From the NCBI GenBank assembly GCA_021851405.1, contig JAJZDW010000004.1, forward strand, positions 295-64,294: 64,000 nucleotides of DNA. The letters run 5' to 3'. Positions 22,527-31,927 of the stretch are shown in pieces. The position numbers and the translations under genes were made by a program. Origin of the DNA: Pseudomonadota bacterium. Lineage in GTDB: Bacteria; Pseudomonadota; Gammaproteobacteria; Steroidobacterales; Steroidobacteraceae. Below the pieces are notes generated by a model. That model ran no database searches and had not been told where the DNA came from. It saw nothing but the letters and a program-made list of their open reading frames with translations. Numbering within the stretch: the first letter of the stretch is position 1; each line of letters opens with the position of its first letter.

Positions 22527-23093
22527 TTACGATCTCAGCCCAATCCGCTCGAGCAGCGCCCGGAGCTCGGATTCGACTGCGGCCGCGCGCAGCACTGCTG
22601 CGAGATCGATTCTGCGAGCGAGCGCTACGCGCGTCATGGGCTTCTCGTAAGCCGGCCATTTCCGTTTCAACGCCCGCTGGGCCTCGGGTGTATCCGGCGG
22701 CTGTTGCGTTGCGCACAGCGGGAGGTGACGGAGGATGAGAGCCTCGAAGCAAGGCCGCTGCCACACCACAGAGATCGCGTGGCCATGCGCGAGTCGCTGT
22801 GCGGAGTGCGCGCGAGCAGGGTCTGCGCGGGCTTGATCATGATCGAGGAAGACGAACCGGTCGGCGGGAGCAGTCCGGGTGCGCCGGAGGTGCTCGATCT
22901 TGCGCACCGCCATTTCGATCCTCGAGAGAGGATCTCCTGCACCAAGACCGAGATTCTCGGCGATGAGATGAACGGGAATTCCTGCCGCATGCAGCAGGTC
23001 TTGCAGGAGACCGACGTAGCCGGTCTCCGATTCGCCTTCGCAGCCAATGAAGACGGGGCGGCGCTGCGGTATCCGGGGACGGCGGCTTCTCAT
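22527..23093 (-). CDS. RloB-like protein, partner of the AAA15 ATPase
   Basis: 188 aa from ATG 23093, which overlaps the stop of the ATPase gene by four bases (ATGA), so the two are translationally coupled. Motifs of the RloB family are present: PVFIGCEGESETGYV near the N-terminus (acidic EGExET), FVFLDHDQARADP (D-x-D) and the WQRPCFEALILRHL segment (PCFE..L..H). The layout is similar to Toprim-type nuclease domains, so a nuclease effector is likely. RloB genes were first noted inside restriction-modification loci. Function as a defence effector is inferred. Confidence 0.8.
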   Translation of the reverse strand: MRSRRPRIPQRRPVFIGCEGESETGYVGLLQDLLHAAGIPVHLIAENLGLGAGDPLSRIEMAVRKIEHLRRTRTAPADRFVFLDHDQARADPARAHSAQRLAHGHAISVVWQRPCFEALILRHLPLCATQQPPDTPEAQRALKRKWPAYEKPMTRVALARRIDLAAVLRAAAVESELRALLERIGLRS

Positions 23094-24310
23094 CCGATGT
23101 GCGGCACTCCGCCGTATACGCCGCTGAGGTATTTGCGGTAATGATTTTCGTCGCGTCTGACCTTGACGTCCATGAGGCTGTACACCCTGGTGCGGCCTTG
23201 CCTGTCCTTCTCGCAGATGACGATTTCCTCCTTGTTGAGAACATCCAACAGGGACGCTGAATGGCATGTGAGCCATAGCTGCGCATCGCAAGCGTTGTGG
23301 GACTTGTCATGGAACCAGCGGATGATCTCCGGCAGAATCAACGGGTGGATGAAAGCGTCCAGCTCATCGATCGCGAACAGGCCGCCCTGCGCAAGGGTCA
23401 CGGCAAGTCCCGGGAACATCTTGATGAAGGTTCGGGTACCATGACTTTCAAGTACCCAGGGCATCTCTGAGTGCAGGCCGGAGTGCGTGAAGAGCGGCGC
23501 CGGACCCTGAGGGGTGTTTTCGACGCGCATGCTCTCCACGCCGACGTCGATCCGGCCCAACTCCAGATTGAGGCGAGCCAGGACGGCGGGATGTTGCACG
23601 AGAAACTGGATGATCTGCTGATCCTGGGCTGACCCGGCTTCCAGCTGGAACAGAGCCCGGCGGGCAATGTCGATGAAGAGCGCTGCCGTCGGATGCTGAA
23701 AGAGCGCAAAAGATGACAGCACTGAGGCGTTCGGCTGAAGCGTATTCAGCAGATGCTGATAACCTGACAACGGAAATGATTTGGAGTCCTTCACCGTGTT
23801 GGCGGCCGTGCGTTCGAAGACGCGTTGCCACTTTCCGTGCCCCCGCGGCTTCTGCCGCAACGCCTCCCCTTCGATGCGTTGTGCTTTGCCGTCCTTCAGC
23901 TCGATGCAAAGCTCGTAGCGGTAAAGCCCCTCCTCCGCCGAGGCGCGCTCCTGAACGCGCTTCATGGTCTCGGGCGAGAGGTTCATGACGCCGCCGAACT
24001 CGATCGCAAGGCGGATCGGGCGCGACGCTGATTCGAGATCGTTAAAGCGCTCGCAGGGAAATCCTGGAAATGTTCGTTGGGCGCTGTCGCGGATCATCGA
24101 GACGATGAATTCGAGGGCGCGCAGAACCGTCGTCTTCCCCGACGCGTTGGCGCCGAGGATGGCGATCACCTTGGGAGCACGCGCCTGTGAGCCCGCGAAG
24201 ACCGGCGCGTAGCGGTCCTCGAGGTCAGGCACGTTCGGTGCGATCATCAGATCGATGACCTGACGATCGCGGATGGAAAAGAAATTCTCGATCTCCAGCC
24301 TGTATAGCAT
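23090..24310 (-). CDS. AAA15-type ABC/SMC-like ATPase (RloA-like)
   Basis: 406 aa from ATG 24310 (MLYRLEIENFFSIRD), chosen for the GAGGTGGT site just upstream. It has an SMC/OLD-like head: LxxExFxSI start, Walker A GANASGKTT (~47-55), Walker B LFAIDELDAFIHP (~318-330) and the H-loop LTCHSASLLDVL (~355), with a coil-poor middle insert. This is the AAA15 (COG1106) type found with Rlo and other anti-phage effectors. It probably senses infection and licenses RloB. The promoter upstream carries an inverted repeat. Confidence 0.86.
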   Translation of the reverse strand: MLYRLEIENFFSIRDRQVIDLMIAPNVPDLEDRYAPVFAGSQARAPKVIAILGANASGKTTVLRALEFIVSMIRDSAQRTFPGFPCERFNDLESASRPIRLAIEFGGVMNLSPETMKRVQERASAEEGLYRYELCIELKDGKAQRIEGEALRQKPRGHGKWQRVFERTAANTVKDSKSFPLSGYQHLLNTLQPNASVLSSFALFQHPTAALFIDIARRALFQLEAGSAQDQQIIQFLVQHPAVLARLNLELGRIDVGVESMRVENTPQGPAPLFTHSGLHSEMPWVLESHGTRTFIKMFPGLAVTLAQGGLFAIDELDAFIHPLILPEIIRWFHDKSHNACDAQLWLTCHSASLLDVLNKEEIVICEKDRQGRTRVYSLMDVKVRRDENHYRKYLSGVYGGVPHIG

Positions 24311-24330
24311 GACCACCTCTTCGTGGGCAC

Positions 24331-24366
24331 ATAGTATCAATATTGACGGAAAACCGTCAAAATACT
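24331..24366 (-). promoter_or_regulatory. Promoter and inverted-repeat operator of the ATPase-RloB pair
   Basis: On the minus strand TTGACG (24360-24355) and TACTAT (24336-24331) are 18 bases apart, a good sigma70 promoter about 20 bp before the ATPase ATG. The -35 is embedded in a perfect 7-bp inverted repeat TTGACGG-AAAA-CCGTCAA (24343-24360), with extra AGTAT/ATACT flanks. A repressor bound here would block RNA polymerase; the regulator is unknown and not encoded next door. Confidence 0.7.
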
Positions 24367-25440: not shown

Positions 25441-26304
25441 CTATTCCGCGTTCTGCACCTGCTCGCGCATCTGCTCGATCAGCACCTTCATGTCGACCGC
25501 GCTGCGCGTGGTCTCGAGGTCCTGCGACTTCGAGGAGAGCGTATTGGCTTCGCGATTCAGTTCCTGCATCAGGAAATCCAGGCGTCGACCGGCCGGTTCG
25601 TTGCCGGTGAGCACCCGGCGCACCTCGGCGATGTGCCCGGCCAGCCGCTCGAGCTCCTCGTCCACATCCAGGCGCTGCAGCAGCAGGGCGATTTCCTGCT
25701 CGAGCCGCTCCGGATCGGTGCCCGACGCGAGCTCCTTGATCCGCTCACGCACCCGGGTGGTCAGACGGGATTGCACCTCGGGTAGCCGGGCCTGAACCTG
25801 GGTCACCAGCGCGGCAAGCCCCTCGCAGCGCTGTTCGAGCACGTCACGCAGCTTTGCACCCTCGCGGGCGCGCGCCGCGCACAGGTCCGCGACCGCTGCC
25901 TCGAAGACCTCGCGGGCCGCCGTGAGCAGCGCTTCGCCGGCGACGCTCAGATCCTTCAGCACGCCGGGCCAGCGCAGCACCTCGAGCAGGTTCACCGTCC
26001 CGACCGGGATGACGCGCTGCAGCTCATCGAGCCGGCCCGTCAGGCGATCCAGCGCGCCGGCGTCAACCTCTAAACTGGCCGCGGCGGCCTGAGCGGCCCG
26101 ATAGGTGATGGTGCAATCGACCTTGCCTCGGCGTACGTCGCGCGCCAGGCGCTGGCGCAGATCGCCCTCGATCGCGCGCAGTTCCTCCGGCAGGCGAAAG
26201 CCGGTCTCGAGAAAACGGTGATTGACGCTGCGCAGCTCGCACACGAGGCTGCCCCAGGGGCCGGCGCTCTCGCGGCGTGCGAAGCCTGTCATGCTGGAAA
26301 TCAC
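25441..26304 (-). CDS. yicC: YicC-family endoribonuclease-like protein
   Basis: 287-aa stress-related protein starting MISSMTGFARRE, the family signature, with LRSVNHRFLETGFRLPEEL shortly after. The C-terminal DUF1732 part contains GTDPERLEQEIALLLQRLDVDEEL and GRRLDFLMQELNREANTL. Recent work describes YicC proteins as RNases affecting stress-related RNAs. In many gammaproteobacteria yicC sits beside gmk or rph; here it is divergent from the phosphatase-rph operon. Confidence 0.93.
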   Translation of the reverse strand: MISSMTGFARRESAGPWGSLVCELRSVNHRFLETGFRLPEELRAIEGDLRQRLARDVRRGKVDCTITYRAAQAAAASLEVDAGALDRLTGRLDELQRVIPVGTVNLLEVLRWPGVLKDLSVAGEALLTAAREVFEAAVADLCAARAREGAKLRDVLEQRCEGLAALVTQVQARLPEVQSRLTTRVRERIKELASGTDPERLEQEIALLLQRLDVDEELERLAGHIAEVRRVLTGNEPAGRRLDFLMQELNREANTLSSKSQDLETTRSAVDMKVLIEQMREQVQNAE

Positions 26305-26380
26305 GTGGAAGCGCTACGCTCCGGGTGGCGTGAGATGATATAAAGCGGACCCCGAACTTTAACAGATATGCGGGCGTCAT

Positions 26381-27130
26381 TTGCGGATCGACTATGCCGA
26401 CGTCACGCTGCTCGGCGGACGCGGGGAGAATCAGGACCGTGTCGCGGTCGCGGTCAGCGAACGTGCGGCGCTGTTGCTGGTGGCGGACGGAATGGGCGGG
26501 TATGCCGACGGTGCACGCGCCGCGGAAATCACCCGGCAGACCATTCTGGACGCATTCCGGCAGGCAACGCAGCCGCTGTTCGATCCGCTCGGCTTTCTGC
26601 ACCTGACGCTCGGCCGCGCGCACGATGCCGTGGTCAAGCTCGGCGCGCAGGCGCCCCTCGATCAGCGCCCGCGCGCCACCTGCGCGCTGTGCCTGGTGCA
26701 GCAGGGGGCCTCGTGGTGGGCGCACATCGGCGATAGCCGCATCTATCACGTCCGCGGCCGCAAACTCATCGGCCGCAGCCGCGACCACAGTCACGTGGAA
26801 GGCCTGCTGCGCGAGGGGCTGATCACCGCCGAGCAGGCCCAGGCGCACCCGATGCGCAACTACGTGGAATGCTGCCTCGGTGGCGGGCCGGTCCTGCCGG
26901 ACATGGCGATCACGCGGCGCCGCCCGCTCGAGGCGGGCGATGCGCTGCTGGTGTGCAGCGACGGGCTGTGGGGGCCGCTGAAGGACGAGGAGCTCGCCGG
27001 GGATCTCGGCGCAAGCGCGACGCCGCTGCGCGATACGCTGCTTGATCTGGCCCGGCGCGCGGTGCGCCGCGCGGGCACTGGCAGCGACAACACATCCGCC
27101 GCCGCGTTGCGGTGGCTTGGCGAACAGTAG
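26381..27130 (+). CDS. PP2C-family Ser/Thr protein phosphatase
   Basis: Cytoplasmic Mn/Mg-dependent phosphatase of 249 aa. All PP2C motifs are present: RGENQDR (~14-20), [12 protein letters not shown] (~34-45), [15 protein letters not shown] (~121), CSDGLWGPL (~207) and GSDNTSAA (~236). No in-frame ATG precedes the domain; the only plausible start is TTG 26381 ([13 protein letters not shown]), close after an in-frame stop at 26360, so low translation is likely. It diverges from yicC and is followed 13 bp later by rph. A partner kinase is not visible in the window. Confidence 0.88.
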
Positions 27131-27143
27131 AGTGAATGAATCG

Positions 27144-27866
27144 ATGACGACCCGACAGAGCGGCCGTGCGGCCGCACAGATGCGCCCGGTGAGTTTTACC
27201 CGCCAGTTCGCCAAGCATGCCGAAGGGGCGGTGCTGGTGGCCTTCGGCGACACCCAGGTGCTGTGCACCGCTAGCGTGGAGGAGTCGGTTCCGCCCTTTC
27301 TGCGCGGCAAGGGGCAGGGCTGGGTGACCGCCGAGTACGGCATGCTGCCGCGCGCGACGCACACGCGCTCGGCGCGCGAGGCGGCGCGCGGCAAGCAGGG
27401 CGGCCGCACGCTCGAGATCCAGCGCCTGATCGGCCGTTCTCTGCGCGCCGTGGTCGACCTGAAGGCCCTCGGGGAGCGCACCGTGACCGTCGACTGCGAC
27501 GTCCTGCAGGCAGATGGCGGCACTCGCACCGCCTCGATTGCCGGCGGCTACGTCGCGCTGGCGCGGGCCTGCCGCGGGCTCGAACGGCGGCGGTTGCTGA
27601 CGCGCTCGCCGCTGCACGGGCAGGTCGCAGCGGTCTCCGTCGGACTCGTCGACGGCGGCGCGCTGCTCGATCTGGAGTATTCCGAGGACTCGCGCGCCGA
27701 GGTCGACATGAACGTCGTGATGAATGACGGCGGCGGGTTCATCGAGCTGCAGGGCACGGCCGAGGGTCACGCGTTCCGTCGCCACGAACTCGATGCGATG
27801 CTGGCGCTCGCCGCCAGCGGCATCGAGCAGATCTTTCCGCTGCAGCGCGAGGCGATCGAGGCATGA
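27144..27866 (+). CDS. rph: RNase PH
   Basis: Phosphorolytic 3'-5' exoribonuclease that trims tRNA 3' ends. 240 aa from ATG 27144 ([18 protein letters not shown]); an in-frame GTG at 27132 is an alternative. Family motifs: [26 protein letters not shown]-type region, [29 protein letters not shown] and [14 protein letters not shown], plus [16 protein letters not shown] at the metal site. Its last codons overlap the start of the next gene by four bases (ATGA), so RNase PH and the RdgB-Gmk protein are translationally coupled. Confidence 0.96.
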
Positions 27867-29101
27867 AGGTCGTCCTCGCCAGCGGCAACCCCGGCAAGCT
27901 GCGCGAGCTGGCCCAGCTGCTCGCCCCGCATGGGCTGCGCATGCTGCCGCAGTCGGCGTTCGGTCTGGAAACGCCGCCGGAGACGGGTACTACCTTCCGC
28001 GAGAATGCGCTGCTCAAGGCACGCCATGTGTCTCGCCTGACGGGCCTGCCGGCGCTTGCGGACGACTCGGGCATCGAAGTCGACGCCCTGCAGGGACGTC
28101 CCGGGGTGTACTCGGCCCGCTATGCCGGCGAAGGGGCGAGCGACGCGGAGAACCTCCGGAAGCTGCTCGCCGATCTTCAGTCCGTGCCCGAGGAGGCCCG
28201 CACGGCGCGCTACCGCTGCGTTCTGGCGCTGGTGCGCGGGGCGCAGGACCCCGAGCCGCTGCTTGCCGAGGGCACTTGGTCGGGCCGGATCCTGCGTGTG
28301 CCGCGCGGCACGGGCGGCTTCGGCTACGACCCGGCGTTCCTGCCGGACGGCTTGGAACACACCGCGGCGGAGCTGGCTGCGGCGCAGAAGAATGCGCTCA
28401 GCCATCGAGGACAGGCGTTGCGGGCGCTGGCGGACCGGGTCGGTGAGCTGCCGGGCCTCGGGGGGGGCGGGCGCCGCCGCGGTTCCGGCGAGCCGGGGCG
28501 GCTGTTCGTGCTGGCCGCGCCCTCCGGTGCGGGCAAGACGTCCCTGGTGCGGGCGCTGCTCGAGCGTAAGCCCAGCCTGAGTCTGTCCGTCTCCCACACC
28601 ACCCGGCCGCAGCGGCCCACCGAGACGAACGGTCGTGAATACCACTTCGTGGGCTCCGAGGCGTTCGAGCGCAGCGTCGCCGAGGGTCGCTTCCTCGAGC
28701 ACGCCCGGGTGTTCGGCAATTACTACGGCACGGCGCGTGAGCCGGTGGAGCGTCAGCTCGCCTCGGGCGCGGACGTGGTGCTCGAGATCGACTGGCAGGG
28801 CGCCCGCCAGGTGCGCGCCGCGATGCCGGCCTGCGAGAGCATCTTCGTCCTGCCGCCCTCGCGCGCGGCGCTGGAGCAGCGGCTGCGCGGCCGAGCCACG
28901 GATTCCGCTGAGGTGATCGCGCGCCGGCTGCGCGAGGCCGCCGGTGACATGACCCATTGGAACGAGTTCGACTACGTCGTGGTCAACGACCAGTTCGAAC
29001 CGGCGCTCGAGGATCTGGTGCATATCGTCGAAGGCCGCGGCGAGGCGCTGTTCGCCGGGCGGCCGGCGCTCGCGCCGCTGCTGGCGCAGCTTCTGGCCTG
29101 A
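27863..29101 (+). CDS. rdgB-gmk: Fusion of XTP/dITP diphosphatase (RdgB) and guanylate kinase (Gmk)
   Basis: One 412-aa frame carries two complete enzymes. Residues 1-~200 are RdgB/HAM1: [48 protein letters not shown] and [10 protein letters not shown], which remove ITP/XTP/dITP from the nucleotide pool. A Gly/Arg linker (~197-211) follows, then guanylate kinase (~212-410): P-loop [31 protein letters not shown] (GMP binding), [26 protein letters not shown] and [11 protein letters not shown]. No in-frame ATG, GTG or TTG lies in the linker; the first (GTG 28508) would cut into the first strand of the kinase. The linker includes a run of eight G (28460-28467), so an assembly indel is the main alternative. 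Between rph and rpoZ. Confidence 0.9.
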
Positions 29102-29182
29102 ACGGTCGACTTTGCCGTATAGTAAGCCCCTCTAGGGTGCCTGCCGCGCCCGTTAACCCATTGTCAGTACGCAAGAATCGCC

Positions 29183-29473
29183 ATGGCCCGCATCACCGTC
29201 GAAGACTGTTTGCAGAACGTCGATAATCTCTTTCAGCTGGTGATTCTCGCGGCCCAGCGTGCGCGGCGCCTGGCCAACGGCGCCGAGCCGACCGTGCCGG
29301 TCGAGAACGACAAGCCCACCGTGGTGGCGCTGCGCGAAATCGCCGCCGGCAACGTCACGGTCGAGATGCTGCGTGAGCCGGAGCCGCCGCCGGCGGAACC
29401 CGCCGCTGCGGATGTGCCCGAGCTCGACATGCAGTCCGCGTTCCGCGCCCCGCAGTTCGGCCTGGGGGACTGA
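29183..29473 (+). CDS. rpoZ: RNA polymerase omega subunit
   Basis: 96-aa small RNAP subunit, part of the ppGpp binding site 1 in proteobacteria. It begins [20 protein letters not shown], and [17 protein letters not shown] matches the conserved centre. The C-terminal ~30 residues are an acidic/Pro extension ([16 protein letters not shown]). It lies 81 bp after the Gmk fusion and 231 bp before spoT; the spacer 29474-29704 holds no other gene that I can support. Confidence 0.95.
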
Positions 29474-29704
29474 GCGCCGCCGGGATCCCCGGCCTGCGCG
29501 CCCCGGCGCCCGTCGGCGCTGGCTCCGGCCCTTGTGGCTGTGTACATTTCCAGTCTGGCGGCGTGAGCCGCAAGCGCGTGGAGTGGATGTGACAGACCGT
29601 TCGGCCGCCGGGCAGGCGCAGGCCGTGGGCCCCGCGAACACTCAGGCTGAGCGCCGGCGGCCGACACCGGCCCGGTGCGGCCCGCGGGCGGAGCGTTGAG
29701 CACC

Positions 29705-31927
29705 ATGGACTACGCGTCTTCCCTTCTCGGGCTGCTTCCCGGCGGGAGGCGGACCCCCGGGCTGAAGGAGCTGCTGGCGACCGTCGGCAGTTACCTGCCA
29801 CCGGACCAGGTGGCCCGTGTGCGTGCCGCTGCGGAATTCGGGGCCTCGGCCCACCAGGGCCAGAAGCGCCTCTCCGGCGAGCCGTACATCGCGCATCCGG
29901 TCGCCACGGCGGCCATCCTCGCGGACCTCAGACTCGATGCCGACACACTGGTGGCGGCGATCCTGCACGACGTCATCGAGGACACCCCTACCCCGAAGGA
30001 CCAGCTCGCCGAGCGCTTCGGCGCCGACGTCGCCGAGCTGGTCGACGGGGTGACCAAGCTCGACGCCATTCAGTTCAAGAACCGCGAGGAGGCGCAGGCG
30101 GAGTCGTTCCGCAAGATGCTGCTCGCGATGGTGCGCGATCTGCGCGTGATCCTGGTCAAGCTCGCCGACCGCACGCACAACATGCGCACGATCCAGGCGA
30201 TGCCGCCGCACCGCCGGCGGGCGATCGCCCGTGAGACGCTCGACATCTACGCGCCGATCGCCGAGCGGCTCGGCCTGTACAACCTGAAACTCGAACTGGA
30301 GGAACTCGGGTTTCGCGCGCTGTATCCGCGGCGCTATCGCGTGTTGGAATATGCGCTGCGCAAGGCGCGGGGCAATCAGAAGGAATTCCTCCAGAAGATC
30401 GAGCAGCAGTTCGAGCTGGCGTTGAAGAAGCACGGCATCGCCGCCCAGGTCGAAACGCGTGAAAAGCACATCTACAGCATCTACCGCAAGATGCTGCGCA
30501 AGCGCGCTTCGCTTGCGGAGATCGTGGACGTGTACGGTCTGCGCATCGTCGTCGATGAGTTCGACACCTGCTATCGCGCGGTCGGCGTCGTGCACTCGGT
30601 GTTCAAACCGATGCCTGGACGGTTCAAGGACTACATCGCCATCCCGCGCGTCAATGGCTACCAGTCTCTGCACACGACGCTGTTCGGTCCCAACGCCGTG
30701 CCCCTCGAGGTGCAGATCCGCACCGAGGACATGCATCGGGTGGCGGAGTCCGGCATCGCCGCGCACTGGAAGTACAAGAGCGGGGAGGATGCCGGCACGA
30801 TGCAGCAGGCGCGCGCCCGGGAGTGGCTCTCGGAGCTCGTCGAGCTGCAGGAGGACGGCAGCTCCGAGGAGTTCCTCGAGAGCGTCAAGGTCGACCTGTA
30901 TCCGGACAAGGTGTACGTCTTTACGCCCAAGGGCAAGATCCTGCGCCTGCCGAGCGGCGCGACGCTGGTCGACTTTGCCTACGCAGTGCACACCGACGTC
31001 GGCAACCGGTGCGTAGCGGCCAAGGTCGACCGACGCCTCACGCCGCTGCGTACGGTGCTGCGCAACGGCCAGACCATCGAGATCATCACCGCCAAGGGCG
31101 CCGTCCCGAATCCCGCCTGGGTGGCGTTCGTGGTCACCGCCAAGGCGCGCAGTGCGATTCGCCATTACCTGAAGAGCCTGCGACGCACCGAGGCGATCGC
31201 GCTCGGCCAGCGGCTGCTCGCACAGGCGCTCGGGGAGTTCAACCTCGCGCTCGAGGCCGTTCCGCCGCAGACGCATGCGGCGATGCTCGGGGAGTTCGGC
31301 ATGAAAGACATGGACGAGCTGTGCGAGCGGATCGGTCTTGGCGAGCGCCTCGCCCCGCTCGTGGCGCGCCGCCTGCTGCCGGTGGGCGCCCCGCAGGACG
31401 GGGCGCAGCTGCCCGCACCGCTCGCGATCGCCGGAACCGAAGGGCTGCTCGTGACCTATGCGCGCTGCTGCTTCCCGCTGCCGAACGATCCGGTGTTCGC
31501 GTTTCTCTCCGCGGGGCGCGGCGTGATCATCCACCGTGACCGCTGCGTGAACGTCGAGGATTACCGCAAGCACCCGGAGAAGTGGCTGCCGGTGAGCTGG
31601 CAGCCTGCTCCGGAGCGGCTGTTCAGCTCCGAGATCCGTGTTGATGTGCTCAACCGCACCGGCGTGCTCGCCCAGGTCGCCGCGGCCATCGCCAGCGCCG
31701 ATACCAACATTCATCACGTCTCGATCGAGGAGCAGGAAGGCGACGCCACGACACTGACGTTCGAGCTGAAAGTGCGCGACCGCAAACAGCTCGCGCACGT
31801 GATGCGGGTGATTCGCCGCATGCCGGACGTGGCGCGCGTCAGTCGCACGATCGCATCGCACGCGCGCGGCGGACGCGCCGACAGCGAGGATCTCGACGAC
31901 TCGGATTCGAATTCCCACACTGCATGA
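29705..31927 (+). CDS. spoT: Bifunctional (p)ppGpp synthetase/hydrolase SpoT
   Basis: 740 aa from ATG 29705 ([16 protein letters not shown]); a GTG at 29675 is open but less likely. Order of domains: HD hydrolase with HDVIEDTP (~88) and YIAHPVATA, synthetase (~230-350: [21 protein letters not shown]), TGS (~395-455: [21 protein letters not shown]), conserved-cysteine ([12 protein letters not shown], ~585) and C-terminal ACT (~640-715). The HD motif is intact, so the hydrolase should be active. Followed by ridA and recG in an order known from gamma/betaproteobacteria. Confidence 0.96.

Follow-up and report, generated by a model that had tools for sequence, protein, structure and literature searches.

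The locus examined here raises the question of whether one gene of an uncultured gammaproteobacterium encodes both the XTP/dITP pyrophosphatase RdgB and guanylate kinase (Gmk) on a single chain, or whether the continuous frame across the two arises from a fault at a run of G between them. A sequence-only reading of the window (the whole stretch of 64,000 nucleotides that was analysed, from a genome of 3.5 Mb in 76 contigs that is 97% complete) had proposed a single-ORF fusion with both enzymes complete, lying directly upstream of rpoZ and spoT. In agreement with this, the ORF translates from ATG to TGA as one frame without an internal stop, and rpoZ and spoT are in place behind it (Table 1). 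Its neighbours are named for what we take to be yicC, PP2C, rph, rpoZ and spoT. Beyond yicC, on the minus strand at 23090–24340, lies an ORF of 416 residues that by eye resembles an ATP-binding (ABC/AAA-type) ATPase. No tRNA was found in the window.

Table 1 Features of the fused locus and its surroundings (positions in the window; last row, loci in relatives).
Feature	Position	Strand	Basis or remark
yicC-like gene, flank of inverted block	25441–26304	-	ORF list, gene-order comparison
PP2C-type phosphatase gene	26381–27130	+	ORF list, gene-order comparison
rph (RNase PH)	27144–27866	+	its TGA overlaps the rdgB ATG (ATGA)
Fused rdgB-gmk ORF	27863–29101	+	412 aa; 27 further fused relatives
RdgB/HAM1 domain, residues 1–188	27863–28426	+	profile match 3–191; 1k7k/2pyu alignment 2–193
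D68	28064–28066	+	aligned residue: D in 1k7k, A in 2pyu (E. coli RdgB with IMP)
Linker, residues 189–211	28427–28495	+	23 aa; pLDDT <50 at 200–208
Run of eight G in linker	28460–28467	+	read from sequence
Guanylate kinase domain, residues 212–412, and stop	28496–29101	+	PF00625 213–390; 7u5f, 2an9 alignments
Gmk PSGAGKTS, residues 220–227	28520–28543	+	translation, structure-based alignment
rpoZ	29183–29473	+	ORF list, gene order, sequence-only reading
spoT	29675–31927	+	ORF as listed; start provisional
Loci with TATANT before the gmk ATG	L032–L039, L043, L045, L147, L149–L153		

Both halves of the protein were recognized by profile searches. In Pfam, Ham1p_like (PF01725) covers residues 3–191 (3.4e-64; 216.6 bits, cut-off 22.5) and Guanylate_kin (PF00625) covers residues 213–390 (3.8e-52, far above its cut-off). 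The NCBIfam model TIGR00042 matches the RdgB part with 175.1 bits against a cut-off of 145.35, and TIGR03263 matches the Gmk part with 236.9 bits against an equivalog cut-off of 160.45; the RdgB part does not attain the cut-offs of more specific equivalogs, for example NF011397 (209.6 of 234). Alignment to 1k7k/2pyu places the catalytic Asp and the GGFGYDP and SHR motifs in the RdgB part, and the Gmk part contains the P-loop and GMP-binding region and aligns to 2an9 without large gaps. Here we take D68 to be the catalytic Asp and PSGAGKTS to be the P-loop, and we presume that the GGFGYDP/SHR, P-loop and GMP-binding motifs have their usual roles in the two enzymes. The GTS motif of Gmk reads GTA in all 28 fused sequences; we considered this as a possible mark of the fusion and rejected it, as unfused relatives, too, can have GTA or GTG there.

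An AlphaFold model of the fused protein has a mean pLDDT of 91, with only residues 200–208 under 50, and a pTM of 0.85, and by Foldseek the two halves correspond to solved structures of RdgB and of Gmk. The RdgB half corresponds to the full-length domain of E. coli RdgB (1k7k, 2pyu, 2q16; 54–55% identical by Foldseek, with D68 aligned), but continues through a linker into Gmk where the E. coli protein stops. The Gmk half is likewise full-length, with its P-loop, and 48–54% identical by Foldseek to Proteobacterial enzymes (Pseudomonas 7u5f/8egl, E. coli 2an9), but follows RdgB with no start codon of its own. With both profiles above their cut-offs in one 412-residue frame, the predicted protein supports the earlier proposal of a true single-ORF fusion in which both enzymes appear intact.

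That proposal came with the caution that an indel artefact at the G run had to be excluded, and the relatives exclude it. The eight-G run is present as reported and sits within the linker, where a sequencing or assembly error could in principle have joined two frames. However, searches of 60 relatives and 396 genomes of the order yielded 27 further same-genus genomes, 66–92% identical, in which a single open frame crosses the same junction and both domains are conserved, and at this junction the longest run in any of the 27 is five G. The nearest relative (G023, 92% identical) has a linker of equal length and no G run. Because relatives that lack the run are fused as well, we reject the artefact, which at this point is hardly conceivable. 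Across the 28 fused genomes the linkers are 19–23 residues long and variable in sequence.

We then classified 55 genomes of the genus, including that of the window. The two genes are fused on one contig in 28 and fused in two contig pieces in one more (G020); in 16 they are separate and overlap by ATGA, in three they are adjacent or ambiguous, in two (G005 and G010) they lie apart, and five were not classed (G270, with one match, and G004, G009, G015 and G030, with no match). The two pieces of G020 carry two different linkers, so this genome is probably a mixed bin. In G257 the matched parts are adjacent and separated by 215 bases; a stop follows rdgB, and gmk is preceded by an ATG. G353 came within the E-value limit of the order search and was rejected as a fusion, since its adjacent parts are separated by two stops, with a probable GTG start for gmk. 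The third such genome, G032 (locus L044), has an rdgB that is missing a stretch with the GGFGYDP region in it and that changes frame internally; the end of this rdgB runs in frame to a gmk with an ATG, and we left the case as ambiguous between decay, an intermediate and an assembly fault. The named records of the fused clade are metagenome bins.

Outside the genus, no fusion was found in samples of the order (396 genomes, E ≤ 1e-97), class (369 genomes, E ≤ 1e-90) or phylum (398 genomes, E ≤ 1e-80), and in the latter two only the window's own genome matched. Nor was one found among the best matches listed for a family sample (200 genomes, E ≤ 1e-60), where the known fused genomes and G353 stand on top, followed by single-domain matches. 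These four samples overlap and all lie within the organism's own phylum. Eight further genomes, none of the same genus and mostly with matches that reach across the linker, were inspected: rdgB preceded gmk in none of them, although for three of the eight the fetched piece showed only gmk and its downstream genes. Among 84,980 species genomes scanned, the best 80 loci include eight that are fused; their linkers match exactly the linkers of genomes that we had counted before, and two more of these 80 are the pieces of G020. One locus, L128, looked joined in the match table and was rejected, as it consists of two overlapping genes. At L128:880–2123, in a more distant gammaproteobacterium (~50% identical), rdgB and gmk overlap by ATGA within a colinear rph-rdgB-gmk-rpoZ-spoT order. 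Because so distant a genome has the same order, this neighbourhood may have arisen repeatedly.

To place the fusion among its relatives, we built two trees. A tree of RdgB plus Gmk (55 rows: 28 fused, 14 of the 16 ATGA-type, three adjacent and 10 separate) groups all fused rows in one clade with support of 92/97, which is not maximal; G016 and G026 (contig ends), G020, G270 and the four genomes with no match were dropped from it. A tree of the neighbouring genes PP2C-rph-rpoZ-spoT (45 rows: 28 fused, eight of the 16 ATGA-type, two of the three adjacent and seven separate) also recovers one fused clade, with an SH-aLRT of 100 by a quick method. The sequence-only reading had held that the fusion would be refuted by relatives in which rdgB and gmk are separate and gmk clearly has its own start. 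Such relatives do exist among other genomes of the genus, but in both trees they fall outside the fused clade, and the nearest relatives there are themselves fused. The ATGA-type genomes form a sister line and not a proven ancestor. As in the fused locus, rdgB of these relatives (G001 and G019, for example) lies directly before gmk, head to tail; their pair differs in being two genes with an ATGA overlap and a TATATT box before gmk, and in the 1.4–4.6 kb that separate gmk from rpoZ in the three examined. At two ATGA-type loci (L167:12268–16689 and L168:12582–14575), the genes between gmk and rpoZ include ORFs that by eye are transporter-like and protease-like.

Gene order was compared across 19 fetched loci, the window, L128 and eight further loci. 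In G059, G073, G207, G249 and G045, PP2C-rph-rdgB points away from yicC-gmk-rpoZ-spoT, and G274 has the same divergent order as far as its contig reaches. The block yicC-PP2C-rph-rdgB is reversed, so that rdgB runs into gmk, in the fused window, G029, G006, G031, G355 (whose piece ends in rph) and G023, and also in the overlapping G001, G002 and G155. We propose that an inversion of this block would have put rdgB head to tail ahead of gmk, that a frame change would then have removed the rdgB stop, and that the old gmk start codon would later have been lost by point mutation. For the last of these steps, G031, which belongs to a deep subclade of the fused genomes, has an ATG in its linker, six codons ahead of the first glycine of Gmk, and in its four sisters the codon at this position is ACG (G034, G035 and G375) or AGG (G355); in our reading, point mutations have eroded the former gmk start here. 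G005 and G010 belong to the same genus but have their genes apart, which requires either a single inversion and a subsequent separation or two or more inversions. The comparison displays stages of the fusion, whereas the exact events are inferred. As part of the explanation that best joins these observations, the fusion very probably has a single origin, in one genus of uncultured gammaproteobacteria.

The comparison with ATGA-type relatives also suggests how expression of the kinase may have changed. All 16 ATGA-type genomes have a TATANT hexamer 7–8 nt ahead of the gmk ATG (15 found by script and G155 by eye), which reads TATATT in 15 and TATAGT in G016. It falls in the end of rdgB in two different rdgB reading frames (10 and 5 of 15) and so seems to be kept as DNA and not as protein; we infer that it likely serves as -10 box for a gmk message with almost no leader. 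In G005 and G010, where rdgB is not adjacent, TATGTT stands before the gmk ATG. No -10-like hexamer is present in any of the 28 fused linkers, and because of this an upstream promoter probably drives gmk in the fusion. A simple scan found no sigma-70-like promoters or terminators around the gene, and its sigma-70 part, covering 26250–29750, carries little weight. The independent expression of gmk that is apparent in unfused relatives would thus have been lost in the fusion, if the hexamer is a promoter element, and the kinase would now be made only together with RdgB, at 1:1, from an rph-rdgB-gmk message.

Alternatively, one gene might still give two products, with internal initiation or cleavage freeing Gmk, so that the fusion would be merely genetic. 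Start-like codons (ATG, GTG or TTG) do occur in 10 of the 28 fused linkers, among them the ATG retained by G031, and in the window's ORF V216, in the first Gmk strand, is encoded by GTG. However, their positions vary from linker to linker, and the other 18 linkers contain none. The window's linker is one of these 18: in residues 189–211 we found no ATG, GTG or TTG, as the earlier reading had stated, and going upstream in frame, the first start-like codon encountered is a TTG at 28418, within RdgB. Together with the missing -10-like box in all 28, this makes separate products unlikely.

We favour instead a genuine bifunctional protein, and selection and copy number bear on this reading. For 11 pairs of closely related genomes, picked from the 28 with the fusion, dN/dS was 0.10–0.36 for RdgB, 0.07–0.23 for Gmk (its first 180 codons) and 0.13–1.29 for the linker. 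By these ratios both domains are under purifying selection, and the linker may not be free of constraint either, because its dN/dS is low (0.13–0.25) in four of the 11 pairs. Copy number was searched in the window's genome and 16 of the 27 other fused genomes, 16 of these 17 being at least 90% complete. PF01725 occurs once in all 17, and no second strong copy of PF00625 was found in any; weak second matches were seen in G006 (32.9 bits, above the cut-off of 25.2) and, below the cut-off, in G000 and G003. As these genomes have no second strong copy, the fusion is predicted most likely to supply both activities. One of the two purine enzymes is essential in studied bacteria. In all likelihood, judging from sequence, RdgB and guanylate kinase are joined here as 1:1 tethered enzymes on one chain, through a probably flexible linker of 19–23 residues and with a single origin in the genus. 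The low model confidence within the linker suggests that it is probably disordered, and the two domains would most likely fold and act separately from each other, like beads on a string. The pTM of the model could hint, against such loose beads, at a fixed arrangement of the domains.

A coupling of nucleotide clean-up with GDP supply, as put forward by the sequence-only reading, is possible. In a more specific version, Gmk would at times phosphorylate IMP, leading to ITP and dITP, and the tethered RdgB would degrade these, lowering the error output of the kinase. The substrates of RdgB are triphosphates, formed at a later step than that of Gmk, and because RdgB acts later in the route there would be no direct hand-over between the two; this chemistry argues against proofreading, as does a linker that varies and is probably disordered. 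On the other hand, the fusion has been kept in 28 genomes with both domains under selection, and excerpts of PMC13266583 describe inosine di- and triphosphates as by-products of nucleotide kinases (citing work on human guanylate kinase) that are removed by ITPases. On balance such proofreading seems rather doubtful. RdgB is known as a dimer and Gmk as a dimer or hexamer. It would be a further step, and an unlikely one, to picture a kinase with its own pool proofreader, in which RdgB clears inosine and xanthosine triphosphates arising from Gmk errors and a joint oligomer forms a higher-order purine-quality complex in the genus.

The position of the fused gene ahead of rpoZ-spoT also invites the idea of ppGpp control tied to the adjacent SpoT, and the sequence-only reading had referred to guanylate kinase as a ppGpp target in many bacteria. 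This part of it is not supported. The best solved Gmk relatives of the fusion are from Pseudomonas, E. coli and Stenotrophomonas, and excerpts of PMC9304144 and PMC6783271 describe interaction of GMK with (p)ppGpp, or its inhibition, as absent in Proteobacteria; moreover, the same spoT neighbourhood is found around unfused gmk in relatives. For both reasons a ppGpp link of the fusion is unlikely, as far as these excerpts go. In favour of such control, PMC6783271 in the same excerpts reports that E. coli GMK becomes sensitive to ppGpp once its C-terminal tail, which sets its resistance, is removed, and members of the deep fused subclade have extra residues near this tail. Taken together, we regard a ppGpp-controlled fusion as highly improbable. 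The extra residues of this subclade (L019, L020, L059 and L060) lie before the last Gmk helix and number up to ~24 in L060; going by the published excerpts, they are near the part that touches the lid of the partner subunit in other GMKs.

Fusion of RdgB to another enzyme on one chain has a parallel in the NCBIfam family NF002698 (328 positions), which we take to be a glutamate racemase-RdgB fusion. Positions 130–317 of this model match the RdgB part of our protein with 156.3 bits, against a cut-off of 301, and the two fusions differ in partner enzyme and in domain order. We found no published RdgB-Gmk fusion in the open-licence literature. Within the reach of these searches, then, the enzymes are known ones and their combination in one protein is new.

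Two widespread purine enzymes appear to have become permanently joined in one bacterial lineage. The relatives display what appear to be successive stages, from divergent genes to overlapping genes, to a fusion that retains the old start codon and finally to one without it, providing a clean case of gene order turning into protein fusion. With the fusion, a link that may exist between errors of Gmk and clean-up by RdgB can also be put directly to the test.
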